NCBI GenBank assembly: GCA_017540175.1
Contig: JAFYBN010000037.1
Coordinates: forward strand, 1 to 41,176
Length of the DNA: 41,176 nt
From: Clostridia bacterium
GTDB taxonomy: Bacteria > Bacillota > Clostridia > Oscillospirales > CAG-272
Reading direction: 5' to 3'
How positions within the stretch are numbered: position 1 is the stretch's first letter; each line of letters begins with the position of its first letter. The notes below the pieces were generated by a model. The model was not told the DNA's origin, searched no databases, and worked only from the letters and a program-made list of their open reading frames with translations. Both the position numbers and the translations under genes were made by a program. This document shows positions 22,973 to 34,462 of the stretch, piece by piece.

Positions 22973-23071
22973 GCGCGGGGAACGCTGAAACCAGAACTGA
23001 CCCGGCGGGGGACGGCAAAGCGGCCGTCCTCCGCTGACTCATGATTGCAGATTATATAAGGAGAGATGGAA

Positions 23072-23842
23072 ATGAAAAAAGAATCCCGCAAGGTCATTAT
23101 CGCCGGCAACTGGAAAATGAACAAGACCCCCTCCGAAACGAAGGTCGCCGTGGCTGAGACCGCAAAGCTCACCTCCGGCAAGTGCGGCTGCGAGGTCGTC
23201 CTCTGCGTTCCGTTCGTCGACATCGCGGCGGCGACGGAAGCGGCGAAGGGCACGAACGTCAAGATCGGCGCGCAGAACGTCCACTTCAAAGCGAGCGGCG
23301 CGTACACCGGCGAGATTTCCGCCGCCATGCTCTGCGAATGCGGCGTGGAATATGTCATCGTCGGCCATTCCGAGAGACGGCAGTATTTCGGCGAAACGGA
23401 CGAGACCGTCAACCTGAGGACCCGCGCCGCGCTGGACGCCGGGCTGAAGGTCATCCTCTGCCTCGGTGAAGTGCTCGAGCAGCGTCAGGCGGGCATCACG
23501 GAAGAGATCGTTTCGATGCAGACCAAGCTCGATCTCGCCGGCATCCCCGCGGAGCAGATGAAGAACGTCGTCATCGCCTATGAGCCCGTCTGGGCGATCG
23601 GCACCGGACTCACCGCCACGCCGGAGCAGGCGGAGGAAGTCTGCGCCATGATCCGTAAGGTCGTCGCCGGACTTTATACACCCGAGATTGCCGAGGCGCT
23701 CACCATCCAGTACGGCGGCAGCATGAACGACGGCAACGCCGCGGAGCTGCTCGCGAAGCTTGACGTGGACGGCGGCCTCATCGGCGGCGCGTCCCTCGTG
23801 CCCGAGAAGTTCGCGAAGATCGTCGACGCCGCGCAGGCATAA
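23072..23842 (+). CDS. tpiA: Triose-phosphate isomerase
   Basis: TpiA interconverts dihydroxyacetone phosphate and glyceraldehyde 3-phosphate. The protein is 256 residues from the ATG at 23072. That start is preferred over the in-frame ATG at 23066 because AAGGAGAG (23058-23065) lies seven bases before it, while it abuts the earlier ATG. The catalytic residues are present: Lys in AGNWKMNK, His in VIVGHSERRQYF and Glu in AYEPVWAIGTG. The phosphate-gripping IQYGGSMN and GGASL close the barrel. The last 59 bases of the gene recur as a remnant at 27288-27346, between the two kinase genes. Confidence 0.98.
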   Translation: MKKESRKVIIAGNWKMNKTPSETKVAVAETAKLTSGKCGCEVVLCVPFVDIAAATEAAKGTNVKIGAQNVHFKASGAYTGEISAAMLCECGVEYVIVGHSERRQYFGETDETVNLRTRAALDAGLKVILCLGEVLEQRQAGITEEIVSMQTKLDLAGIPAEQMKNVVIAYEPVWAIGTGLTATPEQAEEVCAMIRKVVAGLYTPEIAEALTIQYGGSMNDGNAAELLAKLDVDGGLIGGASLVPEKFAKIVDAAQA

Positions 23843-24013: not shown

Positions 24014-24042
24014 TTGAATTCGTTTCACGAATGTGCTATAAT
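24014..24042 (+). promoter_or_regulatory. Promoter of receptor-like kinase gene 1
   Basis: TTGAAT (24014-24019), 17-base spacer, TGCTATAAT with the hexamer at 24037-24042. The same promoter core is kept in copy 2, which shows that promoter and gene were duplicated together. Confidence 0.88.
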
Positions 24043-24091: not shown

Positions 24092-27000
24092 ATGGTCGAG
24101 TTCGCGAAAGTCATATCGCTGGTATGGCCGCAGTGGCAGGTAGAGAAGCTGCTCGGGAAAGGTTCGTACGGAAGAGTGTATCAGGTCGTGCGCAGGGAGC
24201 AAGGCGCCGAGACGCGATCCGCGGTCAAGATCATCTCCGTGCCGCCGGATCCCGCCGAGGCGGATAACCTTCGCGCGAAGGGAATGAAAGAGGATGAGAT
24301 CGTCGGATATTACCGGAAAATCGCTACGGATTTCGGTAAGGAGATCGAAATGCTCCGTGCGGTTCAGGCCTCTCCTCACGTCGTCGGTCTGGAGGATTAC
24401 AAAGTTGTTCAGTCCCGCAGCGCGGCAATGTGGTTCATCCTGATACGGATGGAGCTTCTGACCCCGTTCCAGCAGTACGCGGCGGAGCATCCCCTGCCGG
24501 AGCGGGAGGTGATCCGGCTGGGGATCGAAATGTGCGAAGCGCTGGAGGGCTGCCACGCGAAGAACATCATCCACCGCGACATCAAGCCGCAGAATATCTT
24601 CGCGGACAAAAACGGCTCCTTCAAGCTCGGGGATTTCGGCATCGCCCGCCGCATGGAGGGCATGACGGTTGTCATGCCGCAGAAGGGGACCTTCGGATAT
24701 ATGGCCCCCGAGGTCGCCGCGGGACGGAAATACAACAAGAAAGCGGATATTTGCTCGCTCGGACTGGTCATGTATCAGCTGGCGAATGGTGGAAAGGCGC
24801 CGTTCATCCTGACGGCGGAGGATCAGCACGATCCGATCAGGCGGGACGAAGCCATGCGCCGCAGGCTGTCGGGAGAAAGGCTGCCCGCGCCATCAGCGGC
24901 GTCTCCGGAGCTCGCAAGAATTATTCTGAAGGCATGCGAATACGACCCGGAAAAGCGGATCGAAAGCGCCGCGGAGCTGAAAAGCGCTCTTCTGCGGCTT
25001 GCGGATCAAAAAAAAATCGCCGGGAACAGCTCGGGCGCTTTGGCAGTGGGAGCTGTTTCTGCGGATGTTTCGCTCCGGGAAGCCGAAAAAGTGCGCAAGC
25101 CCAGCGAAACCGCCGGGGGAGCGCGCGACGGTGCCGGACCGGATGGGGCGAACCCCTCCGCACGGGCGTGGAAGAAAGGGGGCAAGCTCCCTTATATCGC
25201 GGTGTTCGCGGCGCTCGCCGTCGTTCTGATCGGCGGTCTGATCGCGGTGATCGCGAATCTGCCGCCGCGCCGACACGCCAGGGCTGAAGAATTCCCGGTT
25301 GAAACAAGGGCGGACCGGGACGCCCCGAAGCCCGCGAACCAAGCCGGGGCGGAAACGGAAGCACCCGAAACCGCTCCGCCGGAAACCGAGCCGCAGGAGA
25401 CCGAGCCGCCGGAGACCGCGGTTGGGGAAGCGCCGAAGCACGATGCGCAGGATGAAGTCCCGCCCGTCCCGGTACCTCCGGACGGTGTTCAGTTCCTGCG
25501 GGTGAAGGCCAGCGGTCAGTGTGGGGATTCTCTGTTCTGGATACTGATGGCGGATCCGTTGGACGACGAGACCGATGAGCTCATCATATATGGAACGGGA
25601 AGAATGTGGGATTATCAAAATTTGTATTCCACAGGGGTCAGTTATTTGCTTATAGGGAGTCCGTGGTATTTGAGTTTAGAGCGAAACACCAGAGTGACAT
25701 TTGAAGACGGAATCACGCATATCGGAAACAACGCGTTTAATTTCAGCTCTAGTCTTATCGGAATTACTCTTGTCGGAGAACTTGTGATCCCGGACAGCGT
25801 GACGACGATCGGAGATCGTGCGTTTAGCGGCTGCAGCGGCTTCGACAGCCTGACGATATCTCCCAGCGTGACGACGATCGGAGAATGGGCGTTTTCCGAA
25901 TGCAGCGGCTTCACCGGCAGCCTGACGATCCCGGACGGGGTGACGTCGATCGGAAACGACGCGTTTTCCCGCTGCAACGGCTTCACGGGCAGTCTGACGA
26001 TCCCGGACAGCGTGACGACGATCGGAGATTATGCATTTTCCGGCTGCAGCGGCTTCACGGGCGGCGTGACGATCGGGAACGGTTTGGAGTCGATCGGAGT
26101 TACTGTGTTCGGTAGTCCGGGATTGACTTCGATCGAGGTTTCGCAAGGGAACAAGAATTTCATTTCCTATCACGGGGTACTGTACACCGCGGACGGCAAA
26201 ACACTTGTTGAATGTCTTGGCGGCATGACGGTGTTTCCCGAGTACCATCCATTGTGTGAGATCATCGGAGATCATGCGTTTTACGATTGCGACGGATTCA
26301 CGGGCAGTCTGGCGATCCCGAACAGTGTGACGACGATCGGAAATCACGCGTTTTCCGGCTGCAGCGGCTTCACCGGCAGCCTGACGATATCTCCCAGCGT
26401 GACGACGATCGGAAATCACGCGTTTTCCGGCTGCAGCGGCTTCGACAGCCTGACGATATCTCCCAGCGTGACGACGATCGGAGAATGGGCGTTTTCCGAA
26501 TGCAGCGGCTTCACCGGCAGCCTGACGATATCTCCCAGCGTGACGACGATCGGAGAATGGGCGTTTGTCGGCTGCGATGGCTTCACCGGCAGCCTGACGA
26601 TCCCGAACAGCGTGAGGACGATCGAAGATCATGCATTTTCCGGCTGCAGAGGCTTCACGGGCAGTGTGACGATCGGGAACGGTTTGGAGGCGATCGGAAT
26701 TTCTGTGTTCCCGGATTATTGTCCGGGAGTGACCTCGATCGAGGTTTCGCAAGGAAACAAGAATTTCATTTCCTATAACGGGGTACTGTATACCGCGGAC
26801 GGCAAAATACTTGTTGAATGTCCTGCCGGCATGACGGTGTTTCCCGAGTGTCATCCATTATGTGAGATCATCAGAGATTCTGCGTTTGTCGGCTGCAGCA
26901 GCTTCACCGGCAGCCTGACGATCCCGAACAGTGTGACGACGATCGGAGAATCGGCGTTTTCCGGCTGCAGCGGCTTCACCGGCAGCCTGACGATATCTCC

Positions 27001-27277
27001 CAGCGTGACGACGATCGGAGATTTTGCGTTTTACGACTGCAGCGGCTTCACCGGCAGCCTGACGATCCCGGACAGCGTGACGTCGATCGGATGGAGGGCG
27101 TTTTCCGACTGCAGCGGCTTCACGGGCAGCCTGACGATCCCGGCGAGCGTGACGTCGATCGGGGCTTGGGCATTCGAAGACTGCAGCGGCTTCACCGGCA
27201 CCCTGACGATCGAAAACAGCGATGCGGATATTGCGGACAGCGCCTTCTACCGCTGCAATTTCTCGAATTATCCGTAA
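24092..27277 (+). CDS. Receptor-like Ser/Thr protein kinase with BspA-type LRR ectodomain, copy 1
   Basis: A 1061-residue transmembrane kinase. The start ATG follows GGAAGGAGGGAG and aligns with copy 2. Residues 1-310 are a Hanks-type kinase with all key residues: glycine loop GKGSYGRV (22-29), K46, the probable alpha-C Glu E84, HRD 161-163, DFG 181-183 and the TFGYMAPEV segment. A juxtamembrane linker leads to a helix at about 366-389 and a stalk rich in Glu, Pro and Thr. The ectodomain begins with a BspA-like CGDSLFWIL...YGTGRMWDY block (about 480-508). About 19 leucine-rich repeats of the TpLRR type (TIPDSVTTIGDYAFSGCSG, 24-residue period) follow, to a CNFSNYP end. It probably senses something outside the cell and phosphorylates cytoplasmic targets. 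Ligand and targets are unknown; no phosphatase gene is nearby. Confidence 0.9.
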   Translation: MVEFAKVISLVWPQWQVEKLLGKGSYGRVYQVVRREQGAETRSAVKIISVPPDPAEADNLRAKGMKEDEIVGYYRKIATDFGKEIEMLRAVQASPHVVGLEDYKVVQSRSAAMWFILIRMELLTPFQQYAAEHPLPEREVIRLGIEMCEALEGCHAKNIIHRDIKPQNIFADKNGSFKLGDFGIARRMEGMTVVMPQKGTFGYMAPEVAAGRKYNKKADICSLGLVMYQLANGGKAPFILTAEDQHDPIRRDEAMRRRLSGERLPAPSAASPELARIILKACEYDPEKRIESAAELKSALLRLADQKKIAGNSSGALAVGAVSADVSLREAEKVRKPSETAGGARDGAGPDGANPSARAWKKGGKLPYIAVFAALAVVLIGGLIAVIANLPPRRHARAEEFPVETRADRDAPKPANQAGAETEAPETAPPETEPQETEPPETAVGEAPKHDAQDEVPPVPVPPDGVQFLRVKASGQCGDSLFWILMADPLDDETDELIIYGTGRMWDYQNLYSTGVSYLLIGSPWYLSLERNTRVTFEDGITHIGNNAFNFSSSLIGITLVGELVIPDSVTTIGDRAFSGCSGFDSLTISPSVTTIGEWAFSECSGFTGSLTIPDGVTSIGNDAFSRCNGFTGSLTIPDSVTTIGDYAFSGCSGFTGGVTIGNGLESIGVTVFGSPGLTSIEVSQGNKNFISYHGVLYTADGKTLVECLGGMTVFPEYHPLCEIIGDHAFYDCDGFTGSLAIPNSVTTIGNHAFSGCSGFTGSLTISPSVTTIGNHAFSGCSGFDSLTISPSVTTIGEWAFSECSGFTGSLTISPSVTTIGEWAFVGCDGFTGSLTIPNSVRTIEDHAFSGCRGFTGSVTIGNGLEAIGISVFPDYCPGVTSIEVSQGNKNFISYNGVLYTADGKILVECPAGMTVFPECHPLCEIIRDSAFVGCSSFTGSLTIPNSVTTIGESAFSGCSGFTGSLTISPSVTTIGDFAFYDCSGFTGSLTIPDSVTSIGWRAFSDCSGFTGSLTIPASVTSIGAWAFEDCSGFTGTLTIENSDADIADSAFYRCNFSNYP
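25790..27255 (+). repeat. 72-base LRR-coding repeats of kinase 1
   Basis: Near-identical units of 72 bases (69 in some) encode the LRRs; GCTGCAGCGGCTTCACCGGC and close variants recur throughout. On top of this, a larger block containing the GNGLE.IG...VSQGNKNFISY...HPLCEII segment occurs twice (about 26060-26290 and 26660-26896), 600 bases apart at its start and 606 at its end because of a two-codon insertion. The low divergence indicates recent expansion or conversion. Confidence 0.88.
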
Positions 27278-27287
27278 TCTCTCCCGC

Positions 27288-27346
27288 GCGGCGCGTCCCT
27301 CGTGCCCGAGAAGTTCGCGAAGATCGTCGACGCGGCGCAGGGCTGA
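27288..27346 (+). pseudogene. Remnant of the tpiA 3' end
   Basis: These 59 bases match the last 59 bases of tpiA (23784-23842) except for about four changes. They encode the same C-terminal residues (ASLVPEKFAKIVDAAQ) followed by a stop, without any start or upstream tpiA sequence. It is a non-functional scar of the tandem duplication. Confidence 0.9.
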
Positions 27347-27387
27347 GCCCGAAGGGCGTGTGTCGAACAAAAAACGCAACAGGACGG

Positions 27388-27440
27388 ACTGCGGTCATCG
27401 GGAAGGGAGCGATCCCCCGAAGACCGCGGTCCTCTTTTTT
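27388..27440 (+). terminator. Duplicated terminator between the kinase genes
   Basis: Copy of the tpiA terminator: ACTGCGGTC...GACCGCGGT followed by CCTCTTTTTT. In its new place it can end the transcript of kinase gene 1 about 110 bases after its stop. Confidence 0.88.
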
Positions 27441-27523
27441 GCCGCGAAAAGGATGCGGAATGCGCCCCACAGGCGTGGAAACGCCGACGGCACGGCATGG
27501 ATCGGAAATCCGGAAAAGAAAAG

Positions 27524-27552
27524 TTGAATTCGCTTTGCGGGTGTGCTATAAT
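27524..27552 (+). promoter_or_regulatory. Promoter of receptor-like kinase gene 2
   Basis: TTGAAT (27524-27529), 17-base spacer, TGCTATAAT with the hexamer at 27547-27552. It is identical in its core boxes to the promoter of copy 1, so both kinases are likely made under the same basal control. Confidence 0.88.
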
Positions 27553-27597
27553 AAGAACCGGAACAAAACACAGGTTTTTCGAAAGGGGGAAGCGCAC

Positions 27598-30048
27598 ATG
27601 GACGAGCTCGCAAAAGTCATATCGACGGTATGGCCGCAGTGGCAGGTGGAGAAGATGCTCGGGAGAGGTTCGTACGGCAGAGTGTATCAGGTCGTGCGCA
27701 GGGAGCAAGGCGCCGAGACGCGATCCGCGGTCAAGATCATCTCCGTGCCGCCGGATCCCGGCGAGACGTATACCCTTCGCTCGGAGGGAATGAGCGAGGA
27801 TGAGATCTCCGACTATTACAGGAAAACCGCCATGGATTTCGGCAAGGAGATCGAAATGCTCCGGGCGGTTCAGGATACGCCCCACGTCGTCGGGCTGGAG
27901 GATTACAAGGTGGTTCAGTCCCGGGGCGCGGCAATGTGGTTCATCCTGATACGGATGGAGCTTCTGACCCCGTTCCAGCAGTACGTGGCGGAGCATCCCC
28001 TCCCGGAGCGGGAGGTGATCCGGCTGGGGATCGAAATGTGCGAGGCGCTGGAGGGGTGCCACGCGAAGAACATCATCCACCGCGATATCAAGCCGCAGAA
28101 TATTTTCGCGGACAAAAACGGCTCCTTCAAGCTCGGGGATTTCGGCATCGCCCGCCGCATGGAGGGCGTAACGGTGACCATGTCCCAGAAGGGGACCTTC
28201 GGATATATGGCCCCCGAGGTCGCCATGGGACGGAAATACAACAAGAAAGCGGATATCTGCTCGCTCGGACTGGTCATGTATCAGCTGGCGAACGGGGGTA
28301 AGGCGCCGTTCATCCTGACGGCGGAGGATCAGCACAATCCGCTCACGCGGGACGAAGCCATGCGCCGCAGGCTGTCGGGAGAAAGGCTGCCCGCGCCCTC
28401 AGCGGTGTCGCCGGAGCTCGCGAAGATCATTTTGAAGGCGTGCGAATACGACCCGGAAAAGCGGACCGAAAGCTCCGCGGAGCTGAAGAGCGCTCTCTTG
28501 CGGCTCGCGGAAAAGAAAAAAACCGCCGTGACGGGCGGGGAACGAAAGGAATCCGCCGGGAACAGCAAGGGCGCTTCGACGGCGGGCGCTGTTTCTGCCG
28601 AAGCTTCGCTCCGGGAAGCCGAAAAAGTGCGCAAGCACAGCGAAACCGCCGGGGGAGCGCGCGATGCTGCCGGACCGGATGGGGCGAACCCCTCCGCACA
28701 GGCGCGGAAGAAAGGGGGCAAGCTCCCTTATATCGCGGTGTTCGCGGCGCTCGCCGTCGTTCTGATCGGCGGTCTGATCGCGGTGATCGTAAATCTGCCG
28801 CCGCGCCGACACGCCAGGGCTGAAGAATTCCCGGCTGAAACAAGAGCGGACCGGGACGCCGCGGAGCCCGCGGACAAGACCGGAACGGAAACGGAAGCGA
28901 CGGAGACCGAATCGCCGGAGACCGAAGCGCCCGAATCCGACAAGGCGGAAACTGTTTCCGACAAGCCGAAGCCCGTTGCAATATTTGAAATTGATCCGGA
29001 GCCTGAGGGGCTGGAAGTTGAGCCGACGGAGCCTGAGGGGCGGGAAGTTGAGCCGACGGAGCCCGAGGGGCGGGAAGTTGAGCCGACGGAGCCCGAGGGG
29101 CGGGAAGTTGAGCCGACGGAGCCCGGGAGGCAGGAAGTCGATCCGGAGCCCGAGGGGCCGGAAGTTGAGCCGACGGAGCTCGGGAGGCAGGAGGTCGATC
29201 CGGAGCCCGTGGGGACCGAGGGGACGGCGCCCACGAGGCTGGAAACCGAGCCGGAGCCCGATGTGCCGGATGACGAACCGCCCGTCTCGGATACTCCGGA
29301 CGATGAAGAACCTGCCGCGAACTACAGCGGGGAACCCGTCGCTCAGATCGCGATCAAGCCGGTGAAGGCCGGCGGTCCGTGCGGGGATTCTCTGTACTGG
29401 AAACTGTTGTCGGACCCGTCGGACGACGGGATCGATGAGATCGTCATATACGGAACGGGAAGAATGTGGGATTATGACGCGATCACGACGGATGACGGCT
29501 TTCAAACCAACGCCCCTTGGAAGGAGCATTTGGAGCGAAACACCGAGGTGACACTTGAAAGCGGAATCACGTATATCGGAAATTACGCGTTTTATTACTG
29601 CCCAAATCTTGTCGGAGAACTTGTGATCCCGGACAGCGTGACGTCGATCGGGGAGGGCGCGTTTATCTATTGCAGCGGTTTCACGGGCAGCCTGACGATT
29701 CCGGACAGCGTGACGGAGATCGAACATCACGCGTTTACATGGTGCAGCGGCTTCACGGGCAGCCTGACGATCGGCGGCGGCACAAAATCGATCGGCGACT
29801 GGGCTTTCGCCGGCACCGGCTTCAGAGGCGGTCTGACCATCGGCCGCAGCGTGGTGAGAATCGGGGAGTACGCGTTCGCCAGCAGCCGTTTCACCGGCAG
29901 CCTGACGATCCCGGCCAGCGTGACGAGCGTCGGGAATCAGGCGTTCTCCGGGTGCGGCGACTTCACCGGCACCCTGACGATCAAAAACAGCGAAACGGAT
30001 ATTGCGGACAACGCCTTCGACTATTGCAATTTCTCGAATTATCCGTGA
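27598..30048 (+). CDS. Receptor-like Ser/Thr protein kinase with BspA-type LRR ectodomain, copy 2
   Basis: An 816-residue paralogue of the upstream kinase. The ATG at 27598 follows GAAAGGGGGAAG. The kinase domain is intact: GRGSYGRV (22-29), K46, HRD 161-163, DFG 181-183. The linker is about ten residues longer than in copy 1, and the membrane helix is at about 376-399. The acidic stalk differs strongly, with a run of ten-residue repeats (EPTEPEGREV type, 28998-29213). The BspA-like block CGDSLYWKLLSDP...YGTGRMWDY leads to only about seven LRRs, more diverged from each other than in copy 1. The C-terminal cap (FTGTLTIKNSE...CNFSNYP) matches copy 1. The activation loop has T194 and S196 where copy 1 has Val and Pro. 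Function is inferred as membrane signalling; ligand unknown. Confidence 0.9.
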   Translation: MDELAKVISTVWPQWQVEKMLGRGSYGRVYQVVRREQGAETRSAVKIISVPPDPGETYTLRSEGMSEDEISDYYRKTAMDFGKEIEMLRAVQDTPHVVGLEDYKVVQSRGAAMWFILIRMELLTPFQQYVAEHPLPEREVIRLGIEMCEALEGCHAKNIIHRDIKPQNIFADKNGSFKLGDFGIARRMEGVTVTMSQKGTFGYMAPEVAMGRKYNKKADICSLGLVMYQLANGGKAPFILTAEDQHNPLTRDEAMRRRLSGERLPAPSAVSPELAKIILKACEYDPEKRTESSAELKSALLRLAEKKKTAVTGGERKESAGNSKGASTAGAVSAEASLREAEKVRKHSETAGGARDAAGPDGANPSAQARKKGGKLPYIAVFAALAVVLIGGLIAVIVNLPPRRHARAEEFPAETRADRDAAEPADKTGTETEATETESPETEAPESDKAETVSDKPKPVAIFEIDPEPEGLEVEPTEPEGREVEPTEPEGREVEPTEPEGREVEPTEPGRQEVDPEPEGPEVEPTELGRQEVDPEPVGTEGTAPTRLETEPEPDVPDDEPPVSDTPDDEEPAANYSGEPVAQIAIKPVKAGGPCGDSLYWKLLSDPSDDGIDEIVIYGTGRMWDYDAITTDDGFQTNAPWKEHLERNTEVTLESGITYIGNYAFYYCPNLVGELVIPDSVTSIGEGAFIYCSGFTGSLTIPDSVTEIEHHAFTWCSGFTGSLTIGGGTKSIGDWAFAGTGFRGGLTIGRSVVRIGEYAFASSRFTGSLTIPASVTSVGNQAFSGCGDFTGTLTIKNSETDIADNAFDYCNFSNYP
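28998..29213 (+). repeat. 30-base tandem repeats in the stalk of kinase 2
   Basis: The unit gttgagccgacggagcc plus gaggggcgggaa (30 bases in all) repeats with very few changes from 29017 on, encoding ten-residue acidic EPTEPEGREV units, then decays into related units with DPEPEG. It has no counterpart of this kind in copy 1. Confidence 0.9.
29570..30035 (+). repeat. LRR-coding repeats of kinase 2
   Basis: About seven units of roughly 69-72 bases encode AF-type LRRs (NYAFYYC, EGAFIYC, HHAFTWC, DWAFAGT, EYAFASS, NQAFSGC, DNAFDYC). They share the frame and consensus of kinase 1 but are less alike among themselves. Confidence 0.8.
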
Positions 30049-30135: not shown

Positions 30136-30208
30136 ATGCCCCGGCAAGTGAAACATGCCCGGCAAGTAAACATGCCCGGCAAGGAAAACCTGCCTCGGCA
30201 GGAAAACC
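30136..30208. repeat. Four tandem 17-18-base repeats upstream of traX
   Basis: The word TGCCCGGCAAG(T/G)(A)AA(A)C repeats four times with drift (TGCCCCGGCAAGTGAAACA, TGCCCGGCAAGTAAACA, TGCCCGGCAAGGAAAACC, TGCCTCGGCAGGAAAACC). It lies in the 363-base gap after kinase 2, which also holds a terminator and a promoter but no gene. Function unknown. Confidence 0.75.
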
Positions 30209-30245
30209 TCCGCCCGCCCTTCAAAAGGGGAAGGCGGAGGTTTTT
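30203..30245 (+). terminator. Intrinsic terminator after kinase gene 2
   Basis: AAAACCTCCGCC (30203-30214) pairs with GGCGGAGGTTTT (30233-30244) over 12 bases, with an inner CCCTT/AAGGGG pairing and a T run. It is a strong hairpin about 150 bases after the stop of kinase 2. Confidence 0.9.
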
Positions 30246-30357
30246 CGCGCCGATCCTTCCCGTTTCTCCGTTTTTTACAAGACCTGCAGTCTTCTTTTGT
30301 GCACAACGCCGGAGTTGCCGACGGGGCAGATTTTGCGCCGAAAAACGACCGTACCCC

Positions 30358-30386
30358 TTGCATTTCCGGGCTTTTTGTCGTATAAT
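30358..30386 (+). promoter_or_regulatory. Promoter of the traX-like gene
   Basis: TTGCAT (30358-30363), 17-base spacer, TATAAT (30381-30386). A start of transcription near 30393 would leave a leader of only about 20 bases, almost all of it ribosome-binding site (AAAGGGGGGTGA, 30392-30403). Confidence 0.82.
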
Positions 30387-30411
30387 AAAAGAAAGGGGGG
30401 TGAGCCGCCGC

Positions 30412-31134
30412 TTGACGTCGTTTGTGCTGAAAATCATCGCCGCGATCTCGATGCTGCTCGATCACGCGGGGCTCATTTTGTACCCCGCTTCGGACGCGCT
30501 GAGGATCGCCGGGCGCCTCGCTTTTCCCATTTACGCGTACTGCATCGCCGAGGGCTTCCGCTATACGAGGAACCGGCTGAAATACTTTCTGCGCATCTTC
30601 CTCCTCGGCGTGCTCTGCCAGATCGTCTATACGATCGCGGAGGGCAGGCTCTACCTCGGCACGCTCATCACCTATTCGATCTCCATCCTCCTGCTCGCCG
30701 CCGCGGACTCTGTGAAAAAGGCGACGAAAGGCGAAAAAAGCGGCTTCGCGGTCCTTTCGGAAAAGCTTTTGAAGCGCGAGATGACAAGCAGCTTCGACCG
30801 GTTTTTCTCCACGTCCGTTTTCGCGGCGCTTTTGTTCCTCGTTTTCTTCCTCACAACGCGGGTCACGGTGGATTACGGCTTCTTCGGCGTGCTGCTTCCC
30901 GTGTGCGCGGGATTCTTTGAGGACAGGGGCCAGCGACTTGTGATGTTCTCCGCCGGACTTCTCGCCCTGTGCATCCATTCGGTGGATTTTCCGATCGAAT
31001 GGTACGCCCTCGCCGCCCTGCCGCTGCTCTTTCTGTACAACGGCAAGCCGGGCAGGGTGAGACTCAAGTATTTCTTCTATATCTTCTACCCGGCGCATCT
31101 CGTCATTCTGTACGGGATCTCCCTTCTCAGGTGA
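30412..31134 (+). CDS. TraX-like polytopic membrane protein
   Basis: About 240 residues with seven or eight hydrophobic segments. It resembles the TraX family by the start FVLKIIAAISMLLDHAGLIL, with the family-typical D-H pair, the segment GRLAFPIYAYCIAEGFRYTRN and the ending FFYIFYPAHLVILYGISLL. TraX acetylates F-pilin in conjugative plasmids, but chromosomal relatives in Bacillota are widespread and probably acylate other surface substrates; no conjugation gene is near. The start is taken as TTG 30412 with AAAGGGGGGTGA ending eight bases upstream. GTG 30400 is in frame but overlaps the ribosome-binding site. The HAD phosphatase gene starts four bases after the stop. Confidence 0.78.
   Translation: MTSFVLKIIAAISMLLDHAGLILYPASDALRIAGRLAFPIYAYCIAEGFRYTRNRLKYFLRIFLLGVLCQIVYTIAEGRLYLGTLITYSISILLLAAADSVKKATKGEKSGFAVLSEKLLKREMTSSFDRFFSTSVFAALLFLVFFLTTRVTVDYGFFGVLLPVCAGFFEDRGQRLVMFSAGLLALCIHSVDFPIEWYALAALPLLFLYNGKPGRVRLKYFFYIFYPAHLVILYGISLLR

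Positions 31135-32741: not shown

Positions 32742-34462
<1,721 letters not shown>

Follow-up and report, generated by a model that had tools for sequence, protein, structure and literature searches.

Tandem, probable receptor-type Ser/Thr kinases with BspA-type leucine-rich repeat ectodomains represent a clostridial kinase subfamily with exchangeable ectodomains

The main finding of this work was the identification of two adjacent genes, here called K1 and K2, as one product of a bacterial kinase subfamily with exchangeable ectodomains. The genes lie on a contig of 41,176 nucleotides (JAFYBN010000037.1, assembly GCA_017540175.1), hereafter called the window, from a member of the family CAG-272 (order Oscillospirales, class Clostridia). 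Different ectodomains were observed on related kinases, and this subfamily, together with the tandem arrangement and unequal divergence of the genes at the K1/K2 locus, constitutes the main novelty reported here; the direction of exchange and the function are what we infer.

Results

K1 (24092-27277, plus strand, 1061 aa) and K2 (27598-30048, plus strand, 816 aa) are receptor-type Ser/Thr kinases with an LRR_5 ectodomain, whose reading frames are uninterrupted over their full length and whose start ATGs are preceded by purine-rich stretches. Both begin with a Hanks-type kinase and end with a BspA-type LRR_5 array; between the two lie a single membrane helix and, after it, an acidic stalk. Pfam placed the kinase domain at residues 16-293 of each protein (24137-24970 in K1, E 2.9e-43; 27643-28476 in K2, E 2.1e-43) and matched LRR_5 far beyond the cut-off (E 2.1e-109 in K1, 9.5e-39 in K2), and no PASTA domain was recognised in either protein at E 0.01. 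The intact kinase that the initial annotation had claimed for each gene is borne out, with K46 (in AVK), HRD at 161-163 and DFG at 181-183 present in both proteins; the elements that characterize a Hanks-type kinase, namely catalytic Lys, αC Glu, HRD, DFG and APE in a kinase fold, are all found, those of αC and APE being E84 and residues 205-207 in K1. An AF2 model of K1 residues 1-305, built from three sequences, adopted a kinase fold (pLDDT 75.9, pTM 0.77), and its best solved-structure match by Foldseek was PknB (E 8.9e-17), whereas a full-length model from one sequence was poor (pLDDT 51).

Hydropathy indicated one membrane helix per protein, from residue 369 in K1 (25196-25264) and from residue 379 in K2 (28732-28800), with positive flanking charges on both sides, which favour neither orientation. 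The stalk of K1 (residues 393-470, 25268-25501) is acidic and proline-rich, with 18 D+E vs 8 K+R in 78 aa, and that of K2 (28804-29361) has 60 vs 16 in 186 aa. Repeats of 30 nt (family D4) at 28997-29203 encode acidic 10-residue units in the K2 stalk. The LRR domain opens with an N-cap (CGDSLFW...GTGRMWDY) at 25502-25774 in K1 (residues 471-561) and 29362-29613 in K2, and the arrays that follow, at 25775-27274 and 29614-30045, both end in CNFSNYP. Hand count of the segments gave 16 repeats in K1 and 6 in K2, in agreement with the unequal repeat numbers noted earlier for these adjacent copies, just as hydropathy, charge counts and Pfam LRR_5 matches agree on the helix, stalk and LRR ectodomain. 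Two of the K1 repeats exceed the 24-residue unit by 57-59 residues, and the K1 array contains an internal duplication (within 26115-27020; family D6) whose 300-nt copies, 26115-26414 and 26721-27020, are 90% identical and lie 606 nt apart. The repeats are of the LRR_5 kind by which BspA-type LRR proteins are recognised, and the ectodomain resembles solved members of that group (4fs7, E 4.6e-39).

The spacer between K1 and K2, whose features the initial annotation did not mention, measures 320 bp and holds first a duplicate of the tpiA 3' terminus and of the hairpin-plus-T stretch behind it (27288-27441; 85% over 27288-27376 and 95% over 27378-27441; families D9 and D10), and then a promoter-like site (27524-27552) with hexamers identical to those of a site upstream of K1 (24014-24042, TTGAAT-17-TATAAT, with TG ahead of the second hexamer). 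The source gene, tpiA (triosephosphate isomerase; Pfam TIM, E 3.6e-95), lies upstream at 23066-23842 on the plus strand. The promoter-like motif occurs 2 times on the whole stretch vs 1.9 expected by shuffling, both occurrences being at the corresponding place upstream of K1 and K2. Since the spacer holds both the tpiA-tail copy and the same promoter-like site, the copied unit comprised the tpiA tail and the kinase gene, and K1 and K2 arose by tandem duplication of it. An assembly artefact as the source of the pair is ruled out, because K1 and K2 show a difference of about 8% in their kinase DNA and have arrays of unequal length. No kinase was detected near tpiA in 24 other genomes of the genus (tblastn, E 1e-5, within fetched flanks of at most 1.5 kb per side, shorter at contig ends). 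Directly 3' of K2, Pfam recognised a TraX-like protein (30136-31134, plus strand).

The two copies have diverged unequally. Identity is 90% between their kinases and falls to 52%, over 226 residues, in what follows the kinase. The dN/dS between K1 and K2 was 0.29 in the kinase (305 codons), and in the shorter segments, each with few substitutions, it was 1.1 in the juxtamembrane part (55 codons), 0.45 in the helix and stalk start (67 codons), 0.88 in the N-cap (84 codons) and 1.36 in the two repeats at the C-terminal end (50 codons). Rounded substitution counts of kinase and N-cap gave a Fisher p of 0.001, so that kinase and sensor are under unequal constraint. Recombination in the N-cap is possible, since synonymous divergence is higher there than in the kinase (0.36 vs 0.20). 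The suggestion of a sensor family under diversification thus holds in part: the sensor diverges faster than a constrained kinase, but positive selection and relaxed constraint are not distinguished by these values.

Alignment places K1 and K2 in a kinase subfamily that is marked by an insert of about 19 residues between β3 and αC. From the catalytic Lys to the αC Glu column there are 38 residues in K1 and K2 and 19 in the PASTA kinase of the same genome; the spacing is 36-40 in 53 of 58 aligned rows and 37-40 in all 24 rows from the class outside the order. In the AF2 kinase model the insert residues form a predicted extra helix (residues 54-62 of K1, 24251-24277) ahead of a long αC. A search with the K1 kinase at E 1e-40 gave matches in 16 of 295 family, 31 of 394 order and 27 of 391 class genomes, these samples overlapping; the rows analysed were 34 of 35 from the family, 21 of 30 from the rest of the order and 24 of 34 from the rest of the class. 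Active-site residues are widely kept in the aligned rows, with the catalytic Lys in 58/58, the HRD Asp in 56/58 and the DFG Asp in 57/58. The nearest kinase relative of K1 and K2 is that of genome G018 (55%); a genome-contig scan gave only one distant relative, and the plasmid and phage collections searched gave distant matches only.

The set in which ectodomains were compared consists of 60 kinase ORFs (58 plus K1 and K2), including other kinases of the same genome and one named MAG, 52 of which were scanned with Pfam. Across genomes the combination of kinase and LRR_5 recurs, in 16 of the 52 scanned ORFs from 13 genomes, 12 with a membrane helix and four, all of one genus, without. Three further scanned ORFs carry LRR_4/LRR_8, and the others bear PASTA, Big_2, Big_3, F5/8C, DUF6273, NPCBM, YARHG, TPR, DUF2963, Flg_new, SPFH or nothing named; in some subfamily members the PASTA, Big_3 and F5/8C domains lie past a predicted membrane helix. 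One relative (L123:1285-3990) has a Band_7/SPFH domain and zinc ribbons past the kinase. Of the nine kinase matches in the genome itself, K1 and K2 alone share a frame with LRR_5, among the matches listed. In class kinases outside the order, the K1 LRR was found by phmmer in 0 of 24 ORFs and LRR_5 by Pfam in 0 of 10 of these.

Mapped on the kinase tree, the LRR_5 label (present in 16 of 53 labelled rows, a count that omits five incomplete, cut or unscanned rows) requires at least 10 changes, vs a shuffled mean of 13.8, with 3 of 200 shuffles at or below 10. When 11 ectodomain types were mapped on 41 rows, additionally omitting those without a named ectodomain, 18 changes were required, against a mean of 23.8 and a minimum of 21 for shuffled labels; Big_2 and Big_3 counted as one type, and the label Ig of one row (L076) comes from sequence reading and not from Pfam. 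As mapped on this tree, the LRR_5 trait is inherited in part and has also switched repeatedly, the partial inheritance in some groups being indicated by a label less scattered than random (10 vs 13.8). Because the tree leaves 17 of its 55 inner branches open and has several rows on long branches, some of which meet, direct cases weigh more than the tree. In genome G241 (C49, L120:3-6312), three tandem kinases are 74-77% identical and their post-kinase parts gave no BLAST match among them, one of the ORFs ending at the contig edge. In G220, kinases that are 69-77% identical bear DUF6273, LRR_5 or neither, with no BLAST match between the post-kinase parts. Behind the G018 kinase, the reading frame changes, and the new frame encodes a helix, then an acidic stretch, then an InlB B-repeat instead of LRR; the change of frame could be genuine or could stem from misassembly. 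The genome of K1 and K2 itself holds, on C31 (L060:4029-12210), two more subfamily kinases side by side, which bear PASTA (one each) and Big_3 domains and, in one of the two, F5/8C domains as well.

The origin of the LRR cassette was approached by BLAST of the ectodomains, confined to fetched loci, many of which had been recruited by K1 similarity. The best matches of the K1 ectodomain were non-kinase LRR_5 ORFs of the genus (58% in G001, 54% on contig C23 of the same genome, 47% in G005), and among the best 25 matches listed there was no LRR_5 kinase for K1 and one for K2 (L112, 41%). By reading, the G001 and G005 proteins start with signal-peptide-like stretches; the C23 ORF has no recognised signal. 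A motif script run on 11 loci, with LRR_5 places on C70 and C125 left out, found a lipobox-like N-terminus in five of nine LRR-rich ORFs of the same genome, and three C23 ORFs of the lipobox type have the N-cap in common with K1 and K2, two of them visibly with an acidic stalk. The CNFSNYP end, searched as a degenerate pattern, occurs at exactly three places in 25 genomes of the genus, namely K1, K2 and the C23 LRR_5 ORF, all in the same genome and encoded by the same 20 nt. Elsewhere in the window, an ATP-synthase alpha/beta-family gene (33005-34432, minus strand) has 77% DNA identity to L075:11993-12501, which lies some 0.4 kb away from the C23 ORF with this end. N-cap identity is 55% between K1 and K2, 44 and 47% to the G005 protein and 33-42% to the lipoprotein-type proteins of the same genome. 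Recruitment of the ectodomain from these lipoproteins is only partly supported, as the N-caps are closer to G005, which is another species.

The same comparison bears on topology. Because lipoprotein-type proteins of the same genome, with lipobox-like N-termini, bear a similar stalk-cap-LRR cassette, their sequences indirectly support an extracellular position of the LRR part of K1 and K2. Four LRR_5 kinases of one related genus (L146, L147, L148 and L149, from G482, G625, G660 and G620) have no strong membrane helix and a β3-αC spacing of 27-29; they are apparently soluble LRR kinases, and LRR_5 in the kinase subfamily is therefore not always outside.

Possible partners were sought across the genome, which is 93.5% complete with 3.5% contamination and gave nine kinase, three PP2C and four FHA matches. 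The PP2C matches adjoin kinases on C16, C112 and C115, and the FHA matches occur on C112 and C115, one apparently within the C112 kinase ORF (same frame length); among these genome-wide matches, none of PP2C or FHA falls on the K1/K2 contig or on C31. In G027 (C40, L063:2728-12854), three subfamily kinases that differ in their ectodomains are clustered with a PP2C, an FHA-ABC transporter and an Amidase_3 protein (N-acetylmuramoyl-L-alanine amidase), which hints at an envelope-related output for the subfamily.

Discussion

Taken as a whole, the data are probably best explained by K1 and K2 being single-pass receptor Ser/Thr kinases built on a chassis with exchangeable ectodomains. The kinase would be cytoplasmic, the helix would cross the membrane, the acidic proline-rich stalk would span the wall and the LRR_5 array would be displayed outside, presumably exposed at the surface. 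By analogy with PASTA kinases, an extracellular macromolecule bound by the array may cluster the kinases and so lead to trans-autophosphorylation, and the extra helix between β3 and αC is a likely site of subfamily-specific dimer or substrate contacts. In evolutionary terms, the kinase would be the conserved part on which ectodomains were exchanged repeatedly, in a direction that we infer; this species would have acquired an LRR_5 cassette like those borne by surface proteins of its genus that lack a kinase, after which the gene would have been duplicated in tandem with the tpiA tail, and the sensors would have diverged while the kinases stayed constrained.

An unlikely but reasonable alternative is that K1 and K2 are envelope-attached kinases, in which array and stalk serve chiefly for anchoring or adhesion and the kinase senses the state of wall or membrane like PrkC and StkP, with no specific ligand. 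BspA-type proteins are known adhesins, sister kinases bear PASTA and Ig-like domains, and the G027 subfamily kinases are clustered with PP2C, amidase and FHA-ABC transporter, all of which would suit such a role; however, the differing ectodomain types among kinases that are 69-77% identical fit variable partners better, and an N-cap that diverges much faster than the kinase fits a fixed wall signal less well. That divergence could also mean that K2, or both ectodomains, are drifting under relaxed constraint after the duplication and that no diversified sensor exists, as the N-cap dN/dS near 1, not clearly above it, and the short array and repetitive stalk of K2 would allow. We consider this improbable, since both frames are open over their full length, both promoter-like sites are kept, the kinases are constrained and both proteins retain the cap motif and the same seven C-terminal residues. 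Descent or transfer from a eukaryotic LRR receptor kinase, which the general resemblance of the parts might bring to mind, can be given almost no credence: the K1/K2 kinase groups with a class-wide bacterial subfamily that has its own insert, in a tree built without eukaryotic kinases, and the repeats are BspA-type LRR_5, the domains run in the opposite order and non-kinase proteins of the genus bear cassettes of a similar kind. Such an origin is thus disfavoured by tree and insert.

If K1 and K2 are receptor kinases on an exchangeable-ectodomain chassis, it is conceivable, and we offer this tentatively, that uncultured members of the order run an evolvable receptor-kinase repertoire, in which a conserved chassis takes surface-protein ectodomains, including LRR arrays, duplicates and diversifies them; it would match, in bacteria, the LRR receptor repertoires of plants, independently reached, and might serve to recognise partners that change, for example neighbouring microbes, hosts or phages. 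Tandem genes of this kind let different ectodomains on related kinases be read directly, in bacteria, and ectodomain swaps on one chassis make the triggers of bacterial receptor kinases beyond peptidoglycan fragments testable. The pair also offers an example of an LRR receptor kinase whose topology is reversed and whose origin is apparently independent.

The PASTA kinases PrkC, PknB and StkP have an N-terminal Hanks kinase, one helix and C-terminal extracellular repeats. K1 and K2 share this order of kinase, helix and C-terminal repeats, in their case putatively extracellular, and PknB is the best fold match of the K1 kinase; they differ in having LRR_5 instead of PASTA, a Lys-Glu spacing of 38 vs 19 and no PP2C match on the contig. 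With the plant LRR receptor kinases (LRR-RLKs), and the LRR-RKs of Dievart et al. (2011), they have in common an LRR ectodomain, one helix and a Ser/Thr-type kinase. The kinase of K1 and K2 is, however, N-terminal, which is not the plant-type order and agrees with the reversal already remarked on in the initial annotation, and it belongs to a bacterial subfamily and is joined to BspA-type repeats. Dievart et al. (2011) searched 884 bacterial genomes for plant-like structures, and the accessible part of their paper names no bacterial one (PMC3268121). Bacterial kinases plus LRRs are also seen in a Pseudomonas aeruginosa STYK, listed among kinases with protein-interaction modules in the portion consulted of Krupa and Srinivasan (2005; PMC1262709), and in the Vibrio STPKLRR, which is described, in the text available, as a secreted T3SS effector with N-terminal LRRs and the kinase behind (PMC10237653). 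The accessible parts of these two papers do not describe a kinase-helix-LRR_5 receptor, and no description of a bacterial one was found in the partly accessible literature searched, which included PMC2843621 and had thin coverage of subscription papers. Finally, the ectodomains of K1 and K2 resemble BspA-type LRR_5 surface proteins in their cap and 24-residue repeats, with 4fs7, 4gt6, 4h09 and TpLRR (6mlx) as solved relatives, and differ from those of the genus, which have no kinase and several of which have a signal-peptide-like or lipobox-like N-terminus.
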